A DNA stretch of 64,000 nucleotides from an uncultured Pseudomonadota bacterium (GCA_902826775.1 CADEHE010000001.1:310001-374000); one strand, 5' to 3'; numbered from the stretch's first letter, positions 48,266 to 64,000 are shown. Made by a program: numbers and translations. Notes: generated from the sequence alone by a model not told the origin.

Positions 48266-49651
48266 ATGCGCTTTTTCTATCACTACATTCCTGCACCGAT
48301 CATCTTGCTGGTGATTGTGGATGCAATTGCGCTGATTCTGTCGATACTGCTCGGCGCGGCACTGCGGTTCTCCAGCCCGGATCTGGTTCAAGAAGATTTT
48401 CTGCCGACTTCGGTCACTTTTGCGTTGATCATGCAAATGGCTATGGCCACTTTCGGGCTGTACCAACGTGAATTCCGCGGGCGCATGCGCGAAGTGGGTA
48501 CCCGGCTGATCGCCAGCTTTGTAGTCGGCTTTGCGCTGATGAGCTTTGTCTTCTACATAGTTCCCCACCTGTATCTCGGGCGCGGTGCGTTTGGTCTATC
48601 GCTGTTGGTGGGAATGATGTCCATCTGGTGCATCAGAGCCGCTTTCTTCAAGTGGGCCGAGACGGGCGTGCTGCTACCGCGAGTGCTAGTGCTGGGAACC
48701 GGGACGCGAGCGCTTACTATCGCTACTGCCACGGTGTCTGGGGCGCGAACCTACAGCGCGAATATCGTTGGGTACCTTCCGGTGAAAAGCTCCCAACACT
48801 TCGTTGACGCCACGAAGATACTTCCAGAAGAGGGAGCGCCGCTACTTTCGGTGGTCGATAAGTACCGTATCAACGAGATTATTATCGCCGTGCGTGAGCG
48901 GCGCGGGGGCGGCCTCCCAATGAGCGACTTGCTCAGTTGTCGCTTGGCTGGCGTAAAGATTACTGAAGCCTCCAGCTTTTTTGAACGTGAGCGCGGCCAA
49001 GTTAGACTCGACTCGCTGAATGCGAGTTGGTTGATTTTCGGCGAAGGGTTCAACAATAGAGCGTTGCGCGATATGGTAAAGCGGTCGTTCGATTTGTTCG
49101 TCAGTGGATTGCTTCTACTACTGACGCTGCCCATCATGCTGGTAACCGCACTACTGATCAAATTCGAAAGCCGTGGACCTGTGTTCTACCGCCAGGAGCG
49201 TGTCGGACAAGGTGGCGCTGTGTTTCAAGTATGCAAGTTCCGCAGCATGCGCACCGACGCCGAACACGACGGCAAGCCGCGCTGGGCGACGGCCAAAGAT
49301 GACCGCGTCACGCGCGTAGGGCGTATCATCCGCAAACTGCGCATCGATGAACTGCCGCAAGTGCTCAACGTGTTTAACGGCGACATGAGTTTCGTTGGCC
49401 CGCGACCCGAGCGCCCGTTTTTCGTCGACCAACTGAACAAAGAAATCCCCTACTACGCTGCTCGCCATAGCATCAAGCCCGGCATCACCGGCTGGGCGCA
49501 AGTACGCTACCCTTACGGCGCCTCGCTCGAGGACGCGGTAGAAAAGTTGCAGTATGATTTGTATTACGTTAAGAACCACAGCTTGTTTTTAGACCTGATG
49601 ATCCTGGTCGAAACCATTCAGGTCGTGGTCTTGGGCAAGGGCGCACGCTGA
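48266..49651 (+). CDS. EpsB-type undecaprenyl-phosphate sugar phosphotransferase (PEP-CTERM associated)
   Basis: This enzyme probably starts an exopolysaccharide repeat by transferring a sugar phosphate to undecaprenyl phosphate. The 461-residue protein has four N-terminal membrane helices, a CoA-binding-like middle domain (RVLVLGTGTRALTIATATVS) and the C-terminal bacterial sugar transferase domain: KRSFDLFVSGLLLLLTLPIM, FRSMRTDAEHDG, RIDELPQVLNVFNGDMSFVG and GPRPERPFF. It is 19 bases upstream of prsK, the arrangement seen for the sugar transferase linked to XrtA systems. Confidence 0.92.
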   Translation: MRFFYHYIPAPIILLVIVDAIALILSILLGAALRFSSPDLVQEDFLPTSVTFALIMQMAMATFGLYQREFRGRMREVGTRLIASFVVGFALMSFVFYIVPHLYLGRGAFGLSLLVGMMSIWCIRAAFFKWAETGVLLPRVLVLGTGTRALTIATATVSGARTYSANIVGYLPVKSSQHFVDATKILPEEGAPLLSVVDKYRINEIIIAVRERRGGGLPMSDLLSCRLAGVKITEASSFFERERGQVRLDSLNASWLIFGEGFNNRALRDMVKRSFDLFVSGLLLLLTLPIMLVTALLIKFESRGPVFYRQERVGQGGAVFQVCKFRSMRTDAEHDGKPRWATAKDDRVTRVGRIIRKLRIDELPQVLNVFNGDMSFVGPRPERPFFVDQLNKEIPYYAARHSIKPGITGWAQVRYPYGASLEDAVEKLQYDLYYVKNHSLFLDLMILVETIQVVVLGKGAR

Positions 49652-53138: not shown

Positions 53139-55940
53139 ATGAAACTATTTCTAGGCAAAGGTCTCCTGAGCCGTTATGCGCGCCTCGTCAGTGCGGGCGC
53201 GTTGATACTGGTGGCGAGCGCTTGCGAGCGCTCGCCGTCGGTTGCCGGCTTGCTGGAACAGGCGCGCAAGTTTGAGAGTCAAGGCGATTTCACGTCCGCG
53301 CAGATTCAGCTCAAAAACGCAGTACAGCAAGATCCGAACAACGCTGAGGCGCGCTTGATGCTTGGTAGCCTGCAAGTAGCCGCGGGCGATTTTTCCGGCG
53401 CTGAGAAGGAACTGCAGCGCGCCCTCGAACTCAACGCCGATAAGGCCAAGGTGATGCCTCTGTTGGCACGCGCTTGGTTGCGCCGCGGCGAGGTTGAAAA
53501 AGTGATCGCCGAGGGAAAACTGGCGGCCGAAGACGCGCAAGAGACCTCGGCGGAAATTCTCGCGCTGCGCGGGAACGCCTATGCTGCGCTCGGCAAGGTG
53601 GACGAAGCAAGGCGTGCCTTTGAGTTGGCCTTAGCGCGGGACGCGGCGTTGCCGGATGCGCTACTAGGCCAAGCGAAGCTTGCCGTCCGCGATAACAAGC
53701 CAGAAGAAGCGTTCGCGCTGGTCCAGCGCGCCGTTGAGAAGAACCCCAAGTTCGTTGACGGCTGGGTGTTCATCGGCGACCTGCAGCGCTTTCTCAACAA
53801 GAGCGATGAAGCGGAAAAAGCCTATCGGCGGGCTACTCAAGAAAAGGCCGACGATGTGGTGGCGCGCGTAAACCTCGCCTCATTGCTCCTCAGTCAAGGC
53901 AAGGAGCAGGAAGCCAAGATCGAGATAGATGCAGCCCGCAAACAATCGCCCGGGCACATCATGGCGATATTCATGGAAGGGCTGATGCATTACAAGGGCG
54001 GACGCTACGAGAAATCCGAAGAGGCGCTGCAGCAGATATTGCGCGCGCTGCCGGAGCATCTGCCCAGCCTGTTGCTCTCTGGCGCGAATCAATTGGCTCT
54101 AAAGCGGCTAGAGCAGGCCGAGAAAAATCTTAGCATCGTGGTCGAGAAGCAGCCGCAGAACATCTACGCGCGCAAGCTGCTTGTTTCGACATTCCTAATG
54201 GGCAAGCAGGGTCACAAAGCGCTGGAAGGTGTAGAGGCTGCGCTCAAAATGGCGCCCGAAGATCCGCAATTGCTCGCGTTGGGCGGCGAGGCGCTGATGC
54301 AGATAAACGATTTCGCCAAGGCTCAGCAATACTTCGAGAAGGCGAGCAAGCTCGATCCGAAGAATTCTGGCATCCGCACCAGCTTAGGCGTTTCGCGCCT
54401 CGCCGCAGGTGAAACCGACACTGCCATGGCCGACCTCGAGTCGGCGACAGATTTGGATCCCAAGCGATTCCAAGCCGACACAATTTTGATCGCCGCGCAC
54501 TTAGGGCGACGCGAGTACGATGAGGCGCTCAAGGCCATACAAGGATTGGAACAGAAGCAGCCAACCAATCCGCTGACGTATAACCTGAAGGGCGCGGCTT
54601 TTCTTGGCAAGAAAGACAGTCCCGCCGCGCGTAAGAGCTTTGAACGCGCGCTGGAGTTGGACCCCACCTATTTTCCGGCAACGATGAATCTCGCGCAGAT
54701 GGACGCTTCGGAGAAGAAGTTTGATGCCGCCAAGCAGCGCTTCGAAGCGATTCTTGCCAAGGACAAGAAGAACCTGCAAGCAATGCTCGCGCTTGCAAGT
54801 CTGGCTGCCACTAGAGGCGATAAGACCGAATCCGTCTCATGGCTGGAGAAAGCCAAGACCGAAAACCCCAAGGCGCAGCAGCCGCTATTGGCGCTATCAC
54901 GCTATCACCTGCAGAACGGGGAGCTTAAGAAGGCGCTTGAAGCCGCCCATCAGGGCGAGGCCATCAACCCAGAAGGCCCCGAAATGTTGGATACCTTGGG
55001 CTTGGCGCAGCTTGCCAACAACGATCGCGACGGTGCCCTGGCGACTTTCGGCAAGCTGGCGCGGCTCGAAGCCAATTCGCCCCTGGCGCATTTCCGGCTG
55101 GCCGCCGCGCAAGCGGCGCTGGAGAATCGTGCCGCGGCGACGCTATCCCTGAAGCGAGCGCTGGAGCTAAAGCCTGATTTCCAAGACGCTCTGGTCTTGC
55201 TCGCAGGAATATATACGCGCGAAGCGCGCTACACGGACGCTCAGAAAATCGCGGCCGATGTTCAACAACGCTTCCCAAACTCGGCCACGGGGTACTTGTT
55301 GGAAGGCGACGCGCTGCTTGCGCAGAACAAGGCCGCCGAGGCGGCTAAGGCTGTGCAAAAGGCCTATTCGCTTTCTCGCACGGGGCCGGTCTTGGTCAAA
55401 CTTCACTCAGCGCTGGTGGCGGCAAACGACAAGAGCGCCGCACAAACTCTTGCTGACGGGTGGCTGAAAGACCATCCGGACGATCACACGGTCGCACTGT
55501 ATGTGGCCGAGCAACACCTGCGCGCGCATGATTACAAGGCTGCCGCTGCGCAGTACGAGAAAGTGCTGGCCAAGACGCCGGCGAATCCGATGGCGCTCAA
55601 CAATTATGCTTGGGCGCTTGGTCAACTCAAAGACAGCCGAGCTATCGAGCACGCGGAAAAAGCCTATGGCCTGGCGAGCGACAATCCCTCAATCGTGGAC
55701 ACGCTTGCAGTCCTGTTGCTCGAGGCAGGCAAAACGCAGCGCGCGCTGGATCTGCTGCAGTCCGCCACCAATCTCGCCCCTGACTCGCCCGATATCCGCT
55801 ATCACTTCGCGCAAGCGCTCGTAAAGTCTGGAGAAAAGGCCAGAGCGCGGCAGGAACTGGAGCGGGCGCTAGAGTCCAGTCAAAAGTTCGGCGACGAAGA
55901 GGCCGCGAAGCAGTTGCTTAAGGATTTGCGCAACAACTAA
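53139..55940 (+). CDS. prsT: PEP-CTERM system TPR-repeat lipoprotein PrsT (copy 1)
   Basis: The 933-residue lipoprotein has a signal peptide with lipobox VASAC (Cys29) and then TPR repeats to the C-terminus. The first repeats are SVAGLLEQARKFESQGDFTS and QIQLKNAVQQDPNNAEARLM. PrsT proteins accompany exosortase A loci and are thought to help export or polymer assembly at the outer membrane; their mechanism is unknown. A ggag sequence precedes the ATG. The TAA overlaps the ATG of the second copy. Confidence 0.93.
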   Translation: MKLFLGKGLLSRYARLVSAGALILVASACERSPSVAGLLEQARKFESQGDFTSAQIQLKNAVQQDPNNAEARLMLGSLQVAAGDFSGAEKELQRALELNADKAKVMPLLARAWLRRGEVEKVIAEGKLAAEDAQETSAEILALRGNAYAALGKVDEARRAFELALARDAALPDALLGQAKLAVRDNKPEEAFALVQRAVEKNPKFVDGWVFIGDLQRFLNKSDEAEKAYRRATQEKADDVVARVNLASLLLSQGKEQEAKIEIDAARKQSPGHIMAIFMEGLMHYKGGRYEKSEEALQQILRALPEHLPSLLLSGANQLALKRLEQAEKNLSIVVEKQPQNIYARKLLVSTFLMGKQGHKALEGVEAALKMAPEDPQLLALGGEALMQINDFAKAQQYFEKASKLDPKNSGIRTSLGVSRLAAGETDTAMADLESATDLDPKRFQADTILIAAHLGRREYDEALKAIQGLEQKQPTNPLTYNLKGAAFLGKKDSPAARKSFERALELDPTYFPATMNLAQMDASEKKFDAAKQRFEAILAKDKKNLQAMLALASLAATRGDKTESVSWLEKAKTENPKAQQPLLALSRYHLQNGELKKALEAAHQGEAINPEGPEMLDTLGLAQLANNDRDGALATFGKLARLEANSPLAHFRLAAAQAALENRAAATLSLKRALELKPDFQDALVLLAGIYTREARYTDAQKIAADVQQRFPNSATGYLLEGDALLAQNKAAEAAKAVQKAYSLSRTGPVLVKLHSALVAANDKSAAQTLADGWLKDHPDDHTVALYVAEQHLRAHDYKAAAAQYEKVLAKTPANPMALNNYAWALGQLKDSRAIEHAEKAYGLASDNPSIVDTLAVLLLEAGKTQRALDLLQSATNLAPDSPDIRYHFAQALVKSGEKARARQELERALESSQKFGDEEAAKQLLKDLRNN

Positions 55941-58900
55941 TGATGAAAGCTGTTCGAATGCCAAGCTTAAGAGGATTGGTGCTGATCGCGCTGGCCGCGC
56001 TCTCGTCTTGCAAGGCCGGCATATCACTGACTGAAGCTGAGCATCTTGCGCGTGCGCAGGAGTTTCGCTCGCAAGGAAACATGCAGTCAGCGATCATCGA
56101 AGCGAAGAATGCGATACAGAAGAACCAAAAAAGTGGCGCGGCCCGATTACTGCTGGGCGAGATCTACGCGGAACAAGGCAGTGGGCCCGAGGCCGAGAAA
56201 GAACTGCTGAAGGCCGAAGAGTTTGGCGTGAGCATGGAAGCGATTAAGGCGCCGCTGGCTCGCGCCTATCTGGCTCAGAACAAGTTTGAGCGCGTGTTAA
56301 GGGAAATTGAGCCTGGTCCCCAATCCTCCGACATCAACGCAGCCAAGATCCTCGATGCGCGCGCACGCGCGCAACGCGGGATGCGCAAAGACGATGAAGC
56401 GTGCGCGCTGTTTGCCGAGGCGCTAAAGCGAAGCGCTAAATACGTCGAGGCGTACTGGGGCCTCGCGTGGTGCGCGTTTACCAAAGACAAAGTCGACGAC
56501 GCGCGCTCGCTGTTGATGCAAGCAATCAAGTTAGACGACAAACTCGCTGGGACTTGGGCACTGTTAGGCGATCTAGAGCGGTCGCAGAAGCGCGCCACCG
56601 AGTCGCAAGCGGCGTACGACAAAGCGATCGCGCTGCGTCCCGAGCACACCAAGGCTCGGCTTGGGCGCGCCACGTTGCAGATCACAGCAAAGAAATTCAG
56701 TGAGGCTTCGAAGGATATCGACGCGGTTCTTGCGCGTGACAAAGAGGATGCCGATGCGCTGCACTTGAGAGGGGTCGCCCTCTACCATCAAGGCAAGTAT
56801 GCCGACGCCAAGACCGCATTGGAGTTGGCGCTACGGCAAGCGCCGGAGTCTACCGCGACGTTGCTGTGGCTTGGGCTGACCAACTATGCATCGGGCAACT
56901 TGGAGATCGCCTCCCAGCATCTGCAGCGATTCGTGCGTGCTGTTCCCACAGCCACCGATATTAAAGCGCTGCTCGCTTATGTTGAAGCCAAGCGCGGCAG
57001 CCAAGCCGAAGCCAAAGAGGTATTGGCTTCTTTGCAGGGGGCGCAGTTTACTGACTTGCAAAGTTTAACGGCGCTGGGGCAAGCCTTTATGCTGGTAGGC
57101 GACGTCGAGGCCAGTGCAAAGTACTTCTCCGCGGTGGTCGAACAGGCGCCAGGCTCTGCCGCCCAGCGCGTGAATCTAGCAAGCTCGCTCATTCGCGGAG
57201 GCAAGGATGAGCTTGCGCTCACAGAGCTGCAAAAAGCGATCGACCTGGATCCGGAGTCGAAACAAGCCGAACAAATGCTGGTCTTGACTCTGCTCAAACA
57301 GAAGAAATTCGAAGAAGCTTTGCGCGCTTTGGAGCAAGCGGTGAGCAAGCACCCCAAAGAGGCTTGGCCGCAGAACTACAAGGGAGCGGCACTGTTCGAA
57401 AAGCGCGACGCGAGCGGCGCCGTTAGCGCCTATAAGCGTGCACTGGAGATCGAACCCGGCAATGCAGTGGCAACGCACAGCTTGGCGCGTATCGCGCTCG
57501 AAGCAGGAAAATCGGAAGAGGCGCGGCAGTGGTATCGGCAGACGCTGGAAAAGAACCCCGACCACTGGCAGACAATGCTCGCCGTGGCCGATCTCGAGTA
57601 CCGCGCGCGGCGCAATGACGAGGCGCAGCAGTTGCTTGAGCGCGCGGCGCAAAAACATCCTACCGAGCCCGCTGTCGCAGTTAGCTTGGGCCGGATGCAT
57701 CTGGGAAACAATGAGGCACGCAAGGCGTTAACCGCGACGGACGCTGCATCCAAAGCAGCGCCGGCGCATCCCGAACTGCTGCAATTGCGCGGCGCCGCTT
57801 ACCTCGCGCTTGGTGACGCGGGCAACGCATCGGCCGCCTACGAGCAACTCGCAAGAGTGGCGCCTTCCGCTGACGCTCACTACCGGCAGGCGACAGTCCA
57901 TGCAGTTTCGAGGGACAGAAAAGCCATGCGCGCGGCCCTCGGGCGCGCGCTTGCGCTCGATGCGGCGCACAAACCATCGCTCGCTGCGCTCGCAAGATTG
58001 GACTTGAGCGAAGGTCGAGTGGCGGAGGCGCAGAGAACAATCGAACTGCTCGGCAAATCGGATCCACAATCAGCCGAGTTTCCCCTTTTGGAAGCGGAGG
58101 CGGCCGCCAAAGCAGGCGATAGCAACAAAGCGCTGGCGGCCCTTGATCGTGCCGCAGGGCGTGCCAACGCGGCGGCAGAGACGCGTTTTGTCATCGCACA
58201 GCGTCTGCTCGAATTGGGTCAAGCCGAGAAGGCGTTAGCGCTGGCCCGCCAACTGGCGCAGGCGCAACCCAACCGTGCCGAGCTACTCAATTTGGTGGGC
58301 GCGGCCGAGCTCGCTGCGGGCCGCAAAGCCGATGCGATCCGCACCTTTGAGAAAGTGGTTCAACTGCTTCCCAAGGCAGTCGCGCCGCTGCTGCAGGTTG
58401 CGGAAGCCAAGAAGACGGCGGGCGATTTCAAGGGCGCCGGGCAGGCTTACGAGCACGCTTTGACGCTCAAAGCGGACCAGCCGGAGGTCAAGGCACTGTT
58501 GGCCGAGACGCGGTTTAAGCTGGGCGATGCCGAGGCGGCACTTAAACTCGCGCAGGAATTGCAGCGCGAATCGCCAAAGTTGCCGCTTGGGCATAGCCTC
58601 GAAGGAGATATCTTGGCGGCGCAACAGCGTTCCGCCGAAGCGCTGGCGAAATACGAAACCGCGTTCAGCCTCAGGCCGGAAGGCGCTCTGGCCATGAAGA
58701 TCTATGAGGCGCGGGCACAAGGCACACCGAACGTTGGCGCTGCACGAGAGCTGCAGCGCTGGGTGCGCGAACACCCCAAGGATGCCGCCGCTGCACTATA
58801 TCTAGGGGGAGTGTATCTCGCTGCAGGAGAACACACGAGGGCTGCGGAGCAATACCGCCAGGTGCTTAAGTCTGACGCACAGAATCCTGCGGCGATCAAC

Positions 58901-59245
58901 AATTTGGCTTGGGCGCTGCACGGCGCGGGCCAGAACAAGGAAGCCCTGGGGTACGCGGAGCAAGCATACCGCGTTGCGTCGCAAAGCCCTATCGTTATGG
59001 ATACGTATGGGTTTTTCTTGGTTGAGAACGGCAAGCTGGCCCAGGGAACCGAGTTGCTGCGTAAAGCTGCGGCTGCAGCGCCCGATCAGCAAGATATCCA
59101 TTATCACTTGGGAGCCGCATTGGCCAAGGCGGGCGACAAGGCTGCCGCTCGCGCAGCACTGGAAAAAGCCCTAACGCTCGGGGCGGAGCCAAAGGCAAAA
59201 GCGCAAATCAAAGCGCTGCTCGAATCTCTAGTTTTGTCGAGATAA
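55940..59245 (+). CDS. Second PrsT-like TPR lipoprotein
   Basis: The 1101-residue protein has a lipobox ALSSC (Cys24) and TPR repeats throughout. It starts like copy 1 (AQEFRSQGNMQSAIIEAKNA, then IQKNQKSGAARLLLGEIY) and ends with the same type of block (NPAAINNLAWALHGAGQNKE). It is about 170 residues longer, roughly five extra TPRs. Overall the two copies align in layout but are clearly diverged, so this is an old tandem duplication. Translation is coupled through the TAATG overlap. No gene follows for 282 bases. Confidence 0.9.
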   Translation: MMKAVRMPSLRGLVLIALAALSSCKAGISLTEAEHLARAQEFRSQGNMQSAIIEAKNAIQKNQKSGAARLLLGEIYAEQGSGPEAEKELLKAEEFGVSMEAIKAPLARAYLAQNKFERVLREIEPGPQSSDINAAKILDARARAQRGMRKDDEACALFAEALKRSAKYVEAYWGLAWCAFTKDKVDDARSLLMQAIKLDDKLAGTWALLGDLERSQKRATESQAAYDKAIALRPEHTKARLGRATLQITAKKFSEASKDIDAVLARDKEDADALHLRGVALYHQGKYADAKTALELALRQAPESTATLLWLGLTNYASGNLEIASQHLQRFVRAVPTATDIKALLAYVEAKRGSQAEAKEVLASLQGAQFTDLQSLTALGQAFMLVGDVEASAKYFSAVVEQAPGSAAQRVNLASSLIRGGKDELALTELQKAIDLDPESKQAEQMLVLTLLKQKKFEEALRALEQAVSKHPKEAWPQNYKGAALFEKRDASGAVSAYKRALEIEPGNAVATHSLARIALEAGKSEEARQWYRQTLEKNPDHWQTMLAVADLEYRARRNDEAQQLLERAAQKHPTEPAVAVSLGRMHLGNNEARKALTATDAASKAAPAHPELLQLRGAAYLALGDAGNASAAYEQLARVAPSADAHYRQATVHAVSRDRKAMRAALGRALALDAAHKPSLAALARLDLSEGRVAEAQRTIELLGKSDPQSAEFPLLEAEAAAKAGDSNKALAALDRAAGRANAAAETRFVIAQRLLELGQAEKALALARQLAQAQPNRAELLNLVGAAELAAGRKADAIRTFEKVVQLLPKAVAPLLQVAEAKKTAGDFKGAGQAYEHALTLKADQPEVKALLAETRFKLGDAEAALKLAQELQRESPKLPLGHSLEGDILAAQQRSAEALAKYETAFSLRPEGALAMKIYEARAQGTPNVGAARELQRWVREHPKDAAAALYLGGVYLAAGEHTRAAEQYRQVLKSDAQNPAAINNLAWALHGAGQNKEALGYAEQAYRVASQSPIVMDTYGFFLVENGKLAQGTELLRKAAAAAPDQQDIHYHLGAALAKAGDKAAARAALEKALTLGAEPKAKAQIKALLESLVLSR

Positions 59246-59527: not shown

Positions 59528-60373
59528 ATGAACAACAAAATAATTAAACTCGCAGTCGCTGGCGCGCTAGCCGTTGCAGCAAGCGCATCGAGCGCCGCAG
59601 TTTTCACGTTTAGCACCGCTCCTCTGGGTGTGGTTCCCGCGAATACATTCAATGCTGATCAGATCGTTTTCTCATCGCTGGGGCCTTCCAGCCTTACGAT
59701 TACAGATACCAACAATGACGGGCTGTTGGGTTGCGGGGTTGGATGCAACGCGTCTGCTGATACCGGCGTCGAAACCGGCTTGGTGCAGTTCGTCAATTTC
59801 CGTCTAGGCGGCGGCAGCGTCCTTCCGGGTATCAGCGGCATCGACATCAATTACCAGATGTTTGCTGTGTATGACGGTATTAACGGTGGGCCACTGACAG
59901 CGGATACGACTGTTAATGGGGCTGGAGATGTGGTCTCAATATTCAAGAACCCGACCGGCGCGAGAGTGTACTTGGATAGTGGTGCTCTTAACAACAATTT
60001 TGACCTCGGTACTTCGACGTTGATTGCTACTCTAACGCTGGATCCTACCCAGATCAGCAACTGTACTAATCCGTCATTCGGGGCTGCACAGGGCACGTGT
60101 GTGGTGAACTTCGATATGACGGCTCCGACTGCTGGCGTGTGGAACGTGGGTGGAACCGATGTCGCGACGGCAGGTGGTAAGGCGCGTATCGATTTGAACG
60201 TAGATCAGCTCTCGCCCCCTCTTCAGCTGAACTATGGTGCTGTTGGTGGCACACAGACCACTTCGATTGATCATGACGGTTCGGCTCGGATCTCTGTGGT
60301 GCCAGAGCCCACAAGTTTGGCACTCTTGGCATTAGGTTTGATTAGTGTGACTAGGGTTCGCCGCAAGAGCTAG
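59528..60373 (+). CDS. PEP-CTERM sorting-domain protein
   Basis: An exported protein meant for processing by an exosortase. The 281-residue protein has an N-terminal signal peptide (IIKLAVAGALAVAASASSAA), a Ser/Thr/Gly/Asn-rich mature part with few charges and two likely disulfide pairs (GCGVGCN, then NCT and GTC). The C-terminal sorting signal is VPEPTSLALLALGLIS followed by basic TRVRRKS. Such proteins have roles in flocs and biofilm matrix. It has its own sigma-54 promoter and a terminator, so it is a single-gene unit. Confidence 0.95.
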   Translation: MNNKIIKLAVAGALAVAASASSAAVFTFSTAPLGVVPANTFNADQIVFSSLGPSSLTITDTNNDGLLGCGVGCNASADTGVETGLVQFVNFRLGGGSVLPGISGIDINYQMFAVYDGINGGPLTADTTVNGAGDVVSIFKNPTGARVYLDSGALNNNFDLGTSTLIATLTLDPTQISNCTNPSFGAAQGTCVVNFDMTAPTAGVWNVGGTDVATAGGKARIDLNVDQLSPPLQLNYGAVGGTQTTSIDHDGSARISVVPEPTSLALLALGLISVTRVRRKS

Positions 60374-60494: not shown

Positions 60495-61562
60495 ATGTCT
60501 ATTCCAGCTAGTATTGAATTCTTGGCAAAGGCCGGACGGGCGGCACCGTCAGCTGACAATAGCCAACCCTGGCGCATGAGTTGGGACCCGCAGAACGCCC
60601 GGCTGTTGCTCTCGAGCACTTCGCGCTCGTCCTTTCCGGCGGGTCATCCGGCGTGCTTGATTTCGGTAGGGAGCGTTGCCGAAAACATCATTCAAGCAGC
60701 AGCAAGCAGCGGTCTCGATCTTAACATGAGACAAGTGGCGAAACTCGGAAACGTCCATTATGAGTTTCGTATCCCGCAAGCAGATCGCGCTCCTACTGTT
60801 TTATCGGACCACCCTCTTTTCTTGCGGCATACCAATCGCCTGCGCTTTGCATCGAACCCTGTGGAAGAATCCATTTTGGCTGGTTTGAACGCTGATAGGC
60901 AAGGTGGAGCGAGGCTAGTTCGCATTCATCGGCGAGAGGAGATCGTGGCCGTCGCCGATTGCGTGCGCGAGGCGTCTGAGATACGTTTCCAAACACGCGA
61001 GAATCACGAGTGGTTCCACGCCAGCCTGCGTTTTGATCCTGTTGCAGTGGCCAGGGGAGATGGTCTGGATGTTGCGACGCTCGGACTTCCTCCGGGCGGG
61101 GCAGCGATGCTTAGGGCCTTAAGCAACTGGCGGCGCATGGCATTCGCGAATCGGTTTGGCGCCTACGTTGTGTTTGCCCGTGTCGAGGCAGCACCAATCG
61201 CTCGGGCGCCAGCTATTTTGGCCATCGTTGCACCCTCGACGCGCGAGGCGACCTTGGATGCCGGAAGATTGATGCAGCGTGTATGGATCGAAATCAACAG
61301 CACCGGTTTGGCGGTGCAGCCGTTTTACGTTGTTTCCGAGCTACTTCATCGTCTCGAAACGGGTCGATTACTGTCGGGCTCGGAGGCGCGTGCACAAAAC
61401 GTCAGAAACGTTTTGAGTACCACATTGGCGCTACGCGGCGAGACGGTTCATATGTTCTTGCGAATCGGATGGCCAATATGTGAGCCACATCGATCTCGCC
61501 GCATCCCGCTAGAAGAAATAGTATCCCTGGATTCGAGCTATCAGAAAGGAATGAATGGATGA
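60495..61562 (+). CDS. Nitroreductase-like FMN protein (resembles the nitroreductase half of Rv1355c)
   Basis: The 355-residue protein starts ASIEFLAKAGRAAPSADNSQ, followed by PWRM; the APSxDNxQPW pattern is the FMN-binding site of a divergent nitroreductase group. RHTNRLRFAS and the C-terminal GLAVQPFYVVSELLHRLETG support the fold. In mycobacterial Rv1355c the same domain is fused to a ThiF domain; here the ThiF-like gene is separate, two genes downstream. The stop overlaps the methyltransferase ATG (ATGA). The substrate is unknown; a flavin-dependent oxidation or reduction of an acylated product is possible. Confidence 0.82.
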   Translation: MSIPASIEFLAKAGRAAPSADNSQPWRMSWDPQNARLLLSSTSRSSFPAGHPACLISVGSVAENIIQAAASSGLDLNMRQVAKLGNVHYEFRIPQADRAPTVLSDHPLFLRHTNRLRFASNPVEESILAGLNADRQGGARLVRIHRREEIVAVADCVREASEIRFQTRENHEWFHASLRFDPVAVARGDGLDVATLGLPPGGAAMLRALSNWRRMAFANRFGAYVVFARVEAAPIARAPAILAIVAPSTREATLDAGRLMQRVWIEINSTGLAVQPFYVVSELLHRLETGRLLSGSEARAQNVRNVLSTTLALRGETVHMFLRIGWPICEPHRSRRIPLEEIVSLDSSYQKGMNG

Positions 61563-62587
61563 AGGACGAATTGGACATCAATGGATTAACGCTTATTGCG
61601 GGCGGACATACGGCTTTTCAGTTGCTTTGGGCTGGCCATGAGTTGGGGGTATTCGCATTACTTTCAAAACGGCCAGGACTGACACGCGCTCAAATCGCTC
61701 AAGAGATCGCAATCCAATCTCAGCCAGCTCGGATACTAATGACAGGACTGGCCGCATTGCGCCTTGTAATCAAAGAAGGCGACACATACCGTAACAGTAG
61801 TATCGTAGGGCAGCTGCTTGACACCGACAGTCCCCAAAACATGGGTGATATCTTGGGGTGGCAGGCGCTGATTGTTTACCCGGGCGAGATGGATTTTGTT
61901 GAATCATTGCGGAAGAACGCCAATGTGGGGTTGGGTCGTTTCCCCGGTACAGAGAACAATTTGTATCAAAGACTTGTGCACGATCCGAAGCTAGAAAGAG
62001 CTTTTCACGCCGCTATGAGTTCGCTTTCGCGCTCAGCCAATTCCATGTTGGCCAACTCAGTCGACTTTGCCTCGATAAGACACTTGGTGGATGCTGGGGG
62101 CGGCGACGCGACCAATGCACTTGCTTTGGCGCGAGCGCACCCACATCTTCAGCTTACTGTTTTCGACGCGCCTACGGTTTGCCAGTTGGCAGTCGCGAAC
62201 ATTGCTAATGTCGGTCTTACCGAGCGGGTGAAGACGCATTCAGGAGATTTCTTTATAGACGCGTTTCCAAAAGATATCGATGCAATCTTGTTCGCACACA
62301 TGCTAACCATTTGGTCACCAGACAAGGATCGGGCACTGCTCAAGCGCGCCTATGATGCGCTACCCTCGGGTGGGCAGTTGATCATCTTTAATATGATGGG
62401 AGATGATGACGATAGCGGCCCGATCTCAACAGCTCTTGGCTCACCGTATTTTCTGAGCATCGCAACTGGTGAAGGCATGCTTTACTCGTGGGCAGAGTAC
62501 GAGAGCTTTCTCCGCCATGCTGGGTTCTCCCAAACTAGGCGATTTCAACTTCCGCACGATCACGGAGTACTAATTGGAACAAAGTAA
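61559..62587 (+). CDS. SAM-dependent O-methyltransferase (plant-type/hydroxyneurosporene-type)
   Basis: The 342-residue protein has an N-terminal dimerisation domain (AFQLLWAGHELGVFALLSKR) and a C-terminal methyltransferase domain with the SAM motif HLVDAGGGDATNALALARAH and DIDAILFAHMLTIWSPD as the catalytic-region motif. It belongs to the O-methyltransferase family 2 type that methylates hydroxyl or carboxyl groups of small molecules. It is coupled to its neighbours on both sides (4-base and 14-base overlaps). The base composition looks more AT-rich than the housekeeping genes. Confidence 0.87.
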   Translation: MKDELDINGLTLIAGGHTAFQLLWAGHELGVFALLSKRPGLTRAQIAQEIAIQSQPARILMTGLAALRLVIKEGDTYRNSSIVGQLLDTDSPQNMGDILGWQALIVYPGEMDFVESLRKNANVGLGRFPGTENNLYQRLVHDPKLERAFHAAMSSLSRSANSMLANSVDFASIRHLVDAGGGDATNALALARAHPHLQLTVFDAPTVCQLAVANIANVGLTERVKTHSGDFFIDAFPKDIDAILFAHMLTIWSPDKDRALLKRAYDALPSGGQLIIFNMMGDDDDSGPISTALGSPYFLSIATGEGMLYSWAEYESFLRHAGFSQTRRFQLPHDHGVLIGTK

Positions 62588-63470
62588 GGCGGATGTGCGA
62601 GCGCCAGCTTTTCATCTCTTTGATTACGATGACGCCTTCTCTCGCAATCTCGGTTTGGTTCAGCCAACCGAACAGAAAAAGCTTCGGGAAACCACGATCG
62701 CTATAGCAGGGCTGGGAGGAGTTGGAGGTGTTCACCTTACTACATTGGGCCGCATGGGTGTTGGGGGTTTCCACATAGCAGACTTTGATCGATTCGAGCT
62801 ACATAACTTCAACCGTCAGGCGGGAGCCGCCTGCTCGACGCTAGGGCGCGAAAAGGTGGAAGTAATGGCGCGTATGTTGCAAGACATAAACCCGACGGTC
62901 AGACTGCGGAAATTCGAAGAGGGCGTTACAGCGGACAATGTTAGCGAGTTCTTAGAGGGCGTCGATGTCGCGGTCGATGGGTTGGACTACTTCGCACTTG
63001 AAGCTCGAGATTTTTTTTACCGGGCTTCCCGGCTGAAGCGGATTCCGGTTGTTGCCGCTGGGCCGATAGGCTGCAGCGCCGCTCTGCTTGTTTTCATGCC
63101 GGACGAAATGAGCTGGCATGACTACTTCTCGCTAGATTTAGCAAAGACAGTGCAGGATCGATATCTGCTCTTTGCCTTGGGGACTGCGCCACGAGGGCTC
63201 CAAATGCCGTACCTGGATAGATCGTACGTTAACTTTAAGCAGAAACGTGGCCCCTCTCTAGCGTTGGCGGTGCAGTTATGTGCGGGGGTGGTTGCTGCCG
63301 AAGTGCTGAAAATTCTCCTAAAGCGGGGGCCTGTGCTGGCCGCCCCATACTACCAACAGATCGATGCGTATCGTTGCAAGCACGTGATTGGAAAGCTGAG
63401 GTGGGGGAACAGAGGCCCTCTACAACGCTTTAAGTACTCGATCCTTCGCAAACTACTAGACCGGGGCTGA
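62574..63470 (+). CDS. ThiF/E1-like adenylyltransferase
   Basis: The 298-residue protein has the nucleotide-binding core of the ThiF/MoeB/E1 family: TIAIAGLGGVGGVHLTTLGR, DFDRFELHNFNRQAGA (the D..E..N.NRQ signature) and VDGLDYFALEARDFFY. I see no CxxC zinc pairs and no obvious catalytic cysteine loop, so it may adenylate a carboxylate without forming a thioester. The TTG start at 62574 overlaps the methyltransferase by 14 bases; a GTG at 62592 is an alternative. Its partner domain in Rv1355c is encoded at 60495-61562. Confidence 0.87.
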   Translation: MEQSKADVRAPAFHLFDYDDAFSRNLGLVQPTEQKKLRETTIAIAGLGGVGGVHLTTLGRMGVGGFHIADFDRFELHNFNRQAGAACSTLGREKVEVMARMLQDINPTVRLRKFEEGVTADNVSEFLEGVDVAVDGLDYFALEARDFFYRASRLKRIPVVAAGPIGCSAALLVFMPDEMSWHDYFSLDLAKTVQDRYLLFALGTAPRGLQMPYLDRSYVNFKQKRGPSLALAVQLCAGVVAAEVLKILLKRGPVLAAPYYQQIDAYRCKHVIGKLRWGNRGPLQRFKYSILRKLLDRG

Positions 63471-63482
63471 TCACTGTCGTCA

Positions 63483-64000
63483 TTAAAGCCGACGTAGCCG
63501 GCCGATAATTCCCTTCTCTTCCAATGGTGAGAAGGCAAACGGGTATAGCGTTCTCTCGAACGAAGCCAATTCGCTATGACCGCCGAACTTACAGATCTGC
63601 TCGTTGACAAGGACCAGATCCAGTACCAGCAAAACTGCCGGAGCGTTTACCCGCGGGTTTAGTTTCTCTTGACCCACGCGCTTGAAACCCAACATTTGTT
63701 GATAAAACTTCACATGGCGCGGATTGACTTCGACCATAAGATGCGAACAGCCACGAATATGGTGCGCGAATATATGTGCAATATGAAACAAGGACGCAAG
63801 CACTCGCTTTGATCGAACCGAAGCATCTACCGCGAGCTTGGTGAATTCACACAGTCTGTGATTGCCTATGCGCATAGGAGCAATCTCAGCTGCAAACAAC
63901 TGGTCTACGAGCAGACCTACTTCTGAATCAAAGCCGATAGTTATGGTTCCGATGGTCTGGTCAGCAGCAGAAGCGACCAGCGTTACCCGATTGGGGCGCA
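63483..64000 (-). CDS. FeeM-type N-acyl amino acid synthase, C-terminal part (cut by the window edge)
   Basis: The frame is open from the stop at 63483 to the window edge (172 codons), so the start is outside. The visible part shows VTLVASAADQTIGTITIGFD, LCEFTKLAVD, LFHIAHIFAHH, LMVEVNPRHVKFYQQMLGF and NPRVNAPAVLLVLDL, the pattern of FeeM-like GNAT-fold synthases that join long-chain acyl groups to amino acids. Enzymes of this type are known to be linked to PEP-CTERM/exosortase loci. It is convergent with the ThiF-like gene with only 12 bases between them. Confidence 0.8.
   Translation of the reverse strand, partial: RPNRVTLVASAADQTIGTITIGFDSEVGLLVDQLFAAEIAPMRIGNHRLCEFTKLAVDASVRSKRVLASLFHIAHIFAHHIRGCSHLMVEVNPRHVKFYQQMLGFKRVGQEKLNPRVNAPAVLLVLDLVLVNEQICKFGGHSELASFERTLYPFAFSPLEEKGIIGRLRRL

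Follow-up and report, generated by a model that had tools for sequence, protein, structure and literature searches.

Acyl-oxazolone pathways became known between 2020 and 2025 from Proteobacteria and Actinomycetota, namely Oxz, Tyz and Trz (Rv1355c-56c), together with stieleriacine clusters from Planctomycetota. The chemistry of the N-acyl amino acid synthase (NAS), the ThiF-like protein and the nitroreductase-like protein (NTR) was established experimentally for TyzABC (PMC10404671) and TrzAS (PMC12856293). In TrzS cyclisation must precede desaturation, and in Tyz the order is free. What acyl-oxazolones do physiologically was called a major unresolved question (PMC12856293).

Here we analysed a stretch of 64,000 nucleotides from an uncultured Pseudomonadota bacterium (the window), in which genes for an NTR, a methyltransferase (MT) and a ThiF-like protein follow one another (Table 1). 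An earlier note on this DNA had proposed a possible new pathway. As a type it is not new, since oxazolone biosynthesis by NAS, ThiF and NTR (PMC10404671, PMC12856293) and stieleriacine clusters, which also contain a methyltransferase (PMC7293339, PMC12479983), were already published. What is new is the compact order NTR-MT-ThiF in proteobacterial XrtA loci; in the open-access literature we found no description of such a proteobacterial cassette with PEP-CTERM. Furthermore, some findings hint at an N-acylated substrate of the MT, which would be new too.

The stieleriacine-type gene set, i.e. NAS, MT, ThiF and NTR near PEP-CTERM/exopolysaccharide genes, is present at the window. Compared by description, the stieleriacine cluster of Stieleria maiorica (BGC0002080; PMC7293339, PMC12479983) shares NAS, an SfmM2-like methyltransferase, a ThiF-like protein, a nitroreductase and the PEP-CTERM/exopolysaccharide neighbours. 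However, S. maiorica is a planctomycete with four NAS genes, a looser layout and an extra fatty acid desaturase, whereas the window, from Pseudomonadota, has a compact NTR-MT-ThiF row and one convergent NAS. TyzABC of Mycobacterium tuberculosis (PMC10404671) likewise has NAS, ThiF cyclase and flavin oxidase as individual proteins, with the NAS on the opposite strand, but is actinobacterial, contains no methyltransferase and lies outside an XrtA locus. TrzAS (Rv1356c/Rv1355c; PMC12856293) and OxzAB of Pseudoalteromonas rubra resemble the window in domain types and expected chemistry; they differ in that ThiF and oxidase are fused and a methyltransferase is absent. The kyonggic and thalassotalic acid clusters (PMC12479983) are proteobacterial and combine NAS, ThiF and nitroreductase, but no methyltransferase is reported for them.

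Table 1. Features of the locus, with positions counted from the first nucleotide of the window.
Feature	Position	Strand	Remarks
Glycosyltransferase of the XrtA system (TIGR03013)	48266..49651	+	561 bits, cut-off 393
PrsT, TPR lipoprotein of the XrtA/PEP-CTERM system	53139..55940	+	TIGR02917, 846 bits, cut-off 312
Second large TPR protein, PrsT-like	55940..59245	+	ORF and repeat sequence only
PEP-CTERM protein	59528..60373	+	PEP-CTERM motif (Pfam); terminator-like stem at ~60400 between this gene and the trio
NTR, FMN-dependent oxidase of the Acg/Rv1355c/TyzC type, predicted alpha,beta-desaturase	60495..61562	+	355 aa, ATG start
MT, SAM-dependent methyltransferase of the SibL type, predicted aromatic C-methyltransferase	61559..62587	+	342 aa, ATG start
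ThiF, predicted E1-like adenylating enzyme/cyclase	62574..63470	+	298 aa, start TTG 62574 or GTG 62595
NAS, FeeM N-acyl amino acid synthase	63483..64000, on to ~64313 past the window end	-	Pfam FeeM, 4.5e-51

The cassette genes and the predicted pathway

Family-model searches matched the trio to an Acg/Rv1355c-type nitroreductase, Methyltransf_2 and ThiF, in agreement with the three gene types read initially; a PHROGs search gave no useful match. NTR and MT overlap by 4 bases (ATGA), as can be read directly in the sequence. The second overlap that had been noted, 14 bases between MT and ThiF, is valid only if TTG 62574 is used as the ThiF start. An in-frame GTG at 62595, which follows AAGG, appears as plausible a start and would leave a gap of 7 bases between the genes. 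Conservation of ThiF among its relatives begins only at approximately residue 15-18. The terminator-like stem 5' of the NTR gene is an inverted repeat (CCGCC..GGCGG) followed by a T run. The NAS gene, whose complete ORF corresponds to L006:9483-10313, is convergent with the ThiF gene and belongs to the cluster as its fourth gene.

ThiF matches PRK08223 with 387 bits (cut-off 266). Its residues R24, D70, N78, R81, K94 and D138 correspond to R14, D62, N70, R73, K86 and D130 of MoeB and are all conserved, while none of the MoeB zinc cysteines is present in the window protein. The intact adenylation residues and the missing zinc cysteines fit carboxylate adenylation with subsequent ring closure rather than sulfur transfer. 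The NTR is matched by the C-terminal half of the Rv1355c model (2.9e-38) and by the Acg family (4.1e-31). Its predicted structure (pLDDT 88) aligns with Acg (2ymv) over 293 residues at 3.3 A with Z 28.0, and the next match in the structure search drops to Z 15.6. Acg was also named as the nearest solved structure for TrzS (PMC12856293). Thus, an Acg/TyzC-type flavin oxidase is located close to ThiF at the window. At loci with relatives of the trio the NTR occurs in two subtypes, which are ~37-43% and ~21-27% identical to the window NTR.

Judging from the enzyme families, from which all four steps are deduced, we consider it fairly likely that the four genes yield a lipid in which an N-acylated aromatic amino acid carries a methyl group on its ring, most probably an N-acyl 3-methyltyrosine oxazolone or the opened N-acyl-2,3-dehydro-3-methyltyrosine, as in stieleriacines A/B. 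The stieleriacine literature gives the product as the opened dehydro-acid. At first, NAS would couple acyl-ACP or acyl-CoA with tyrosine, and the MT would then methylate the ring ortho to the phenol OH, with SAM as the donor. ThiF with ATP would adenylate the carboxylate, so that the amide oxygen could close the oxazolone ring, and the NTR, using FMN and O2, would desaturate the alpha-beta bond. The last two steps may swap their order.

The earlier note had also compared the trio to RiPP azole(ine)-type pathways, in which an E1-like partner acts together with an FMN dehydrogenase. The enzyme classes are indeed in common, as remarked there. The comparison fails, however, because a YcaO match is absent from the whole genome of the organism (99.5% complete). 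Moreover, the cluster includes an NAS, and a relative has this enzyme in one chain with ThiF and NTR (see below). We regard the idea of a RiPP azole pathway as close to refuted.

The methyltransferase and its candidate substrate

The best solved relative of the MT is SibL (4.5e-79, 269 bits), which C-methylates 3-hydroxykynurenine (PMC4426599). RedM follows with 1.3e-32, the remaining solved relatives reach 9.7e-28 or weaker, and the value for the tyrosine O-methyltransferase MfnG is 1.8e-14 (57 bits). In SibL Tyr134 is catalytic, Tyr295 touches the hydroxyl, and Val248 and Ile249 stand at the His and Asp positions of O-methyltransferases (PMC4426599). The two tyrosines correspond to Y136 and Y297 of the window MT and are invariant in 15/15 cluster MTs. 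The positions of the His-Asp dyad are occupied by T250-I251 in the window and by Thr/Pro-Ile in all 15 proteins, whereas three O-methyltransferase-like controls of the same class have His-Asp there. In the MT tree a supported branch (97/93) separates the cluster MTs together with SibL and RenB from the O-methyltransferase-like rows; the cluster MTs as one clade are not firmly resolved (38/13). With the catalytic tyrosines in common with SibL and, as in SibL, no His-Asp dyad, the MT is probably an aromatic C-methyltransferase and not, as labelled initially, an O-methyltransferase.

O-methylation in an otherwise identical NAS-ThiF-NTR pathway could take place at the phenol, as in stieleriacines D/E, or at the carboxylate, resulting in a methyl ester. 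In line with this, the Pfam family is named O-methyltransferase domain, O-methylated stieleriacines exist (PMC12479983), and the best fold match of the predicted MT structure (pLDDT 81) is an O-methyltransferase family 2 protein (Z 32.8), with SibL among many matches at Z ~25.8. However, since the fold is shared, the fold search is blind to the difference between C- and O-methyltransferases. The loss of the dyad in each cluster MT, its presence in 3/3 controls and the scores for SibL and MfnG argue against O-methylation, which we consider clearly unlikely. Methylation of the carboxyl oxygen is disfavoured by the active site without the dyad, and in addition the ester would block the activation by ThiF. 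The earlier suggestion that the trio combines adenylation of a carboxylate with a methylation and a flavin-dependent redox step stands, while the carboxylate as the site of methylation is unlikely, as the MT resembles aromatic C-methyltransferases and has no O-methyltransferase dyad.

In all cluster MTs, Tyr288 of SibL is replaced by Ser, Thr or Gly and Asp292 by Gly (Ser290 and Gly294 in the window), and Tyr99, which contacts the aniline nitrogen of 3-hydroxykynurenine in SibL, is replaced by Trp. Since these residues are not kept, the substrate should differ from that of SibL. The loss of residues which hold the free amino acid in SibL suggests that the cluster MTs act after acylation, on a substrate whose amino group is no longer free, for instance N-acyl tyrosine. 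The equivalent of Asp292 is retained in RenB and in a Planktothrix relative. From tetrahydroisoquinoline clusters in general, RenB is presumed to be a free-tyrosine C-methyltransferase, and as such it was taken as a control; its record holds no functional annotation and we found no paper on it. Thus, the MT would work like the SibL/SfmM2 type but, with Tyr288/Asp292 replaced, stand outside the full free-amino-acid group. It also belongs to a lipid cluster, in contrast to the antibiotic clusters of SibL and SfmM2.

Alternatively, the MT could methylate free tyrosine first, and the NAS would then take up 3-methyltyrosine. SfmM2 works on free L-Tyr and requires the amino acid part (PMC13109631), and the window MT has kept H335, whose SibL counterpart binds the carboxylate. 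However, the replacement of the Asp292 and Tyr288 contacts in the cluster MTs, at positions of which RenB keeps the Asp, makes this order of events somewhat unlikely. A different substrate, i.e. 3-hydroxykynurenine, tryptophan, phenylalanine or a broad set, is improbable. Such substrates have precedents, since TrzAS uses tryptophan, OxzAB also phenylalanine and SibL 3-hydroxykynurenine, but the catalytic tyrosine pair suits a phenolic ring and the exchange of Tyr99 for Trp is common to all cluster MTs.

Conservation and exosortase-A surroundings of the cassette

With the MT as query, 84,980 species genomes yielded 12 loci with 51-67% identity, and whole-genome searches added G180 and G447, resulting in 14 loci besides the window with an MT more than 50% identical. 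Several loci are short contigs of metagenome-assembled genomes. In the stretch read, ThiF is found beside the MT at 13 of the 14 loci, NTR also at 13 and NAS at 12; ten have the order NTR-MT-ThiF on one strand, with wider spacing in L072 and L078. With such counts for ThiF and NTR, the arrangement is far beyond chance. This agrees with the earlier expectations that the trio is conserved as a unit and that it goes together with an acyl amino acid synthase, which at the window is the convergent FeeM.

The set without the MT is more common. ThiF proteins of this type (E <1e-60) were detected in 11 of 60 relatives from the order, with NAS within ~9 kb in 10 of the 11, NTR in nine and MT in none. 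In the class, 40 of 369 members have the ThiF type; among the best 30 of those 40, with 1.5 kb inspected on each side, NTR was present at 20, NAS at 16 and MT at two, one of which is the window. The frequency of the MT in the order is ~1% (4/399 genomes). Thus, NAS, ThiF and NTR are the core, and the MT is an optional extra.

Two loci deviate from the usual arrangement. In a Methylococcaceae genome (L076:8001-9029) an MT with 56% identity adjoins a PEP-CTERM gene and PrsT, while ThiF, NTR and NAS are absent nearby; it is perhaps a remnant or a partner of genes elsewhere. At L078:7644-9610 a ThiF fragment (residues 16-69) is located 5' and a second, longer ThiF 3' of the MT, which may stem from a partial duplication around the MT or from the assembly.

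Genes of the XrtA system flank the cassette on both sides. Those upstream are listed in Table 1, and downstream, beyond the window, an XrtA export protein, a chain-length determinant, a TIGR03016 outer membrane protein and the XrtA ATPase each exceed their NCBIfam cut-off. The cassette therefore lies within an exosortase-A exopolysaccharide locus. At G180, of another order, the cassette is flanked by PrsT and the export gene. At L073 and L079 no XrtA or PEP-CTERM gene was detected within the stretch checked. Just past ThiF, five cassette loci encode PEP-CTERM proteins that match one another (L070:10658, L071:5201, L072:7518, L074:10009 and L075:9123). The PEP-CTERM protein of the window has no homology to the PEP-CTERM proteins beside the trio at other loci.

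The proximity of long-chain NAS genes to PEP-CTERM systems is already known, also for the stieleriacines (PMC7293339). The XrtA/PEP-CTERM setting suggests a role of the cassette at the cell surface or in the biofilm matrix, but for the pathway proposed above the link to XrtA is one of context only. It is tempting to go further and to speculate that the MT is a C-methyltransferase of a new kind, acting on N-acylated tyrosine or on the oxazolone, and that across Beta- and Gammaproteobacteria, among them floc formers such as Accumulibacter and Dechloromonas, the C-methylated acyl-oxazolone serves as a signal or lipid of the surface or matrix that is connected with the assembly of XrtA exopolysaccharide; as a whole, this extended proposal is rather unlikely.

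The data extend the stieleriacine-like set from Planctomycetota to a conserved cassette of Beta- and Gammaproteobacteria, and its placement in XrtA exopolysaccharide loci provides a concrete hypothesis on its role, in the biofilm or floc matrix. The carriers include relatives of Thiobacillus, Dechloromonas, Accumulibacter and methanotrophs, some of which are possibly more tractable than planctomycetes.

Fused relatives and a probable second pathway in the same genome

On plasmid pDVUL01 of Nitratidesulfovibrio vulgaris, NAS, ThiF and NTR form a single chain of 989 aa (L084:8068-11037; PRK14852, 2397 bits, cut-off 1337), likewise in an XrtA locus with PEP-CTERM genes. This triple fusion is probably a one-protein oxazolone synthase. 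In several other relatives ThiF is part of open frames of at least ~660 aa, directly followed by NTR. Such fusions strongly indicate that the joined enzymes serve a common pathway. The N. vulgaris protein is named only "hypothetical protein" in databases.

A plasmid search for TrzS-type proteins and relatives of the window genes gave ThiF matches only in N. vulgaris and Bdellovibrio. The Bdellovibrio plasmid (L085:1-7456) encodes a lone PRK08223-type ThiF, whose neighbours are an ABC transporter and an unknown protein of 388 aa that matches no NCBIfam model; NAS, NTR or MT were not detected near this ThiF.

The earlier note had read the window pair as a split Rv1355c. This pointed to the right neighbourhood, but the pair itself is not a split Rv1355c, since ThiF reaches 79 bits and NTR 132, with a cut-off of 476 for the Rv1355c NCBIfam model, and the true fused copy is located elsewhere in the genome. 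On contig 14 a ThiF-NTR fusion of 789 aa reaches 746 bits with the same model and adjoins its own FeeM-like NAS (L129:5486-8564, 116.5-119.6 kb). Based on this separate fusion and its NAS, the organism probably has two acyl-oxazolone pathways, one of the Trz type and one stieleriacine-like. Two such pathways are also present in M. tuberculosis, TyzABC (PMC10404671) and TrzAS (PMC12856293). A third FeeM-like domain of the organism is found on contig 12 (L130:4009-5619), in a 536-aa protein with an apparent class V aminotransferase.
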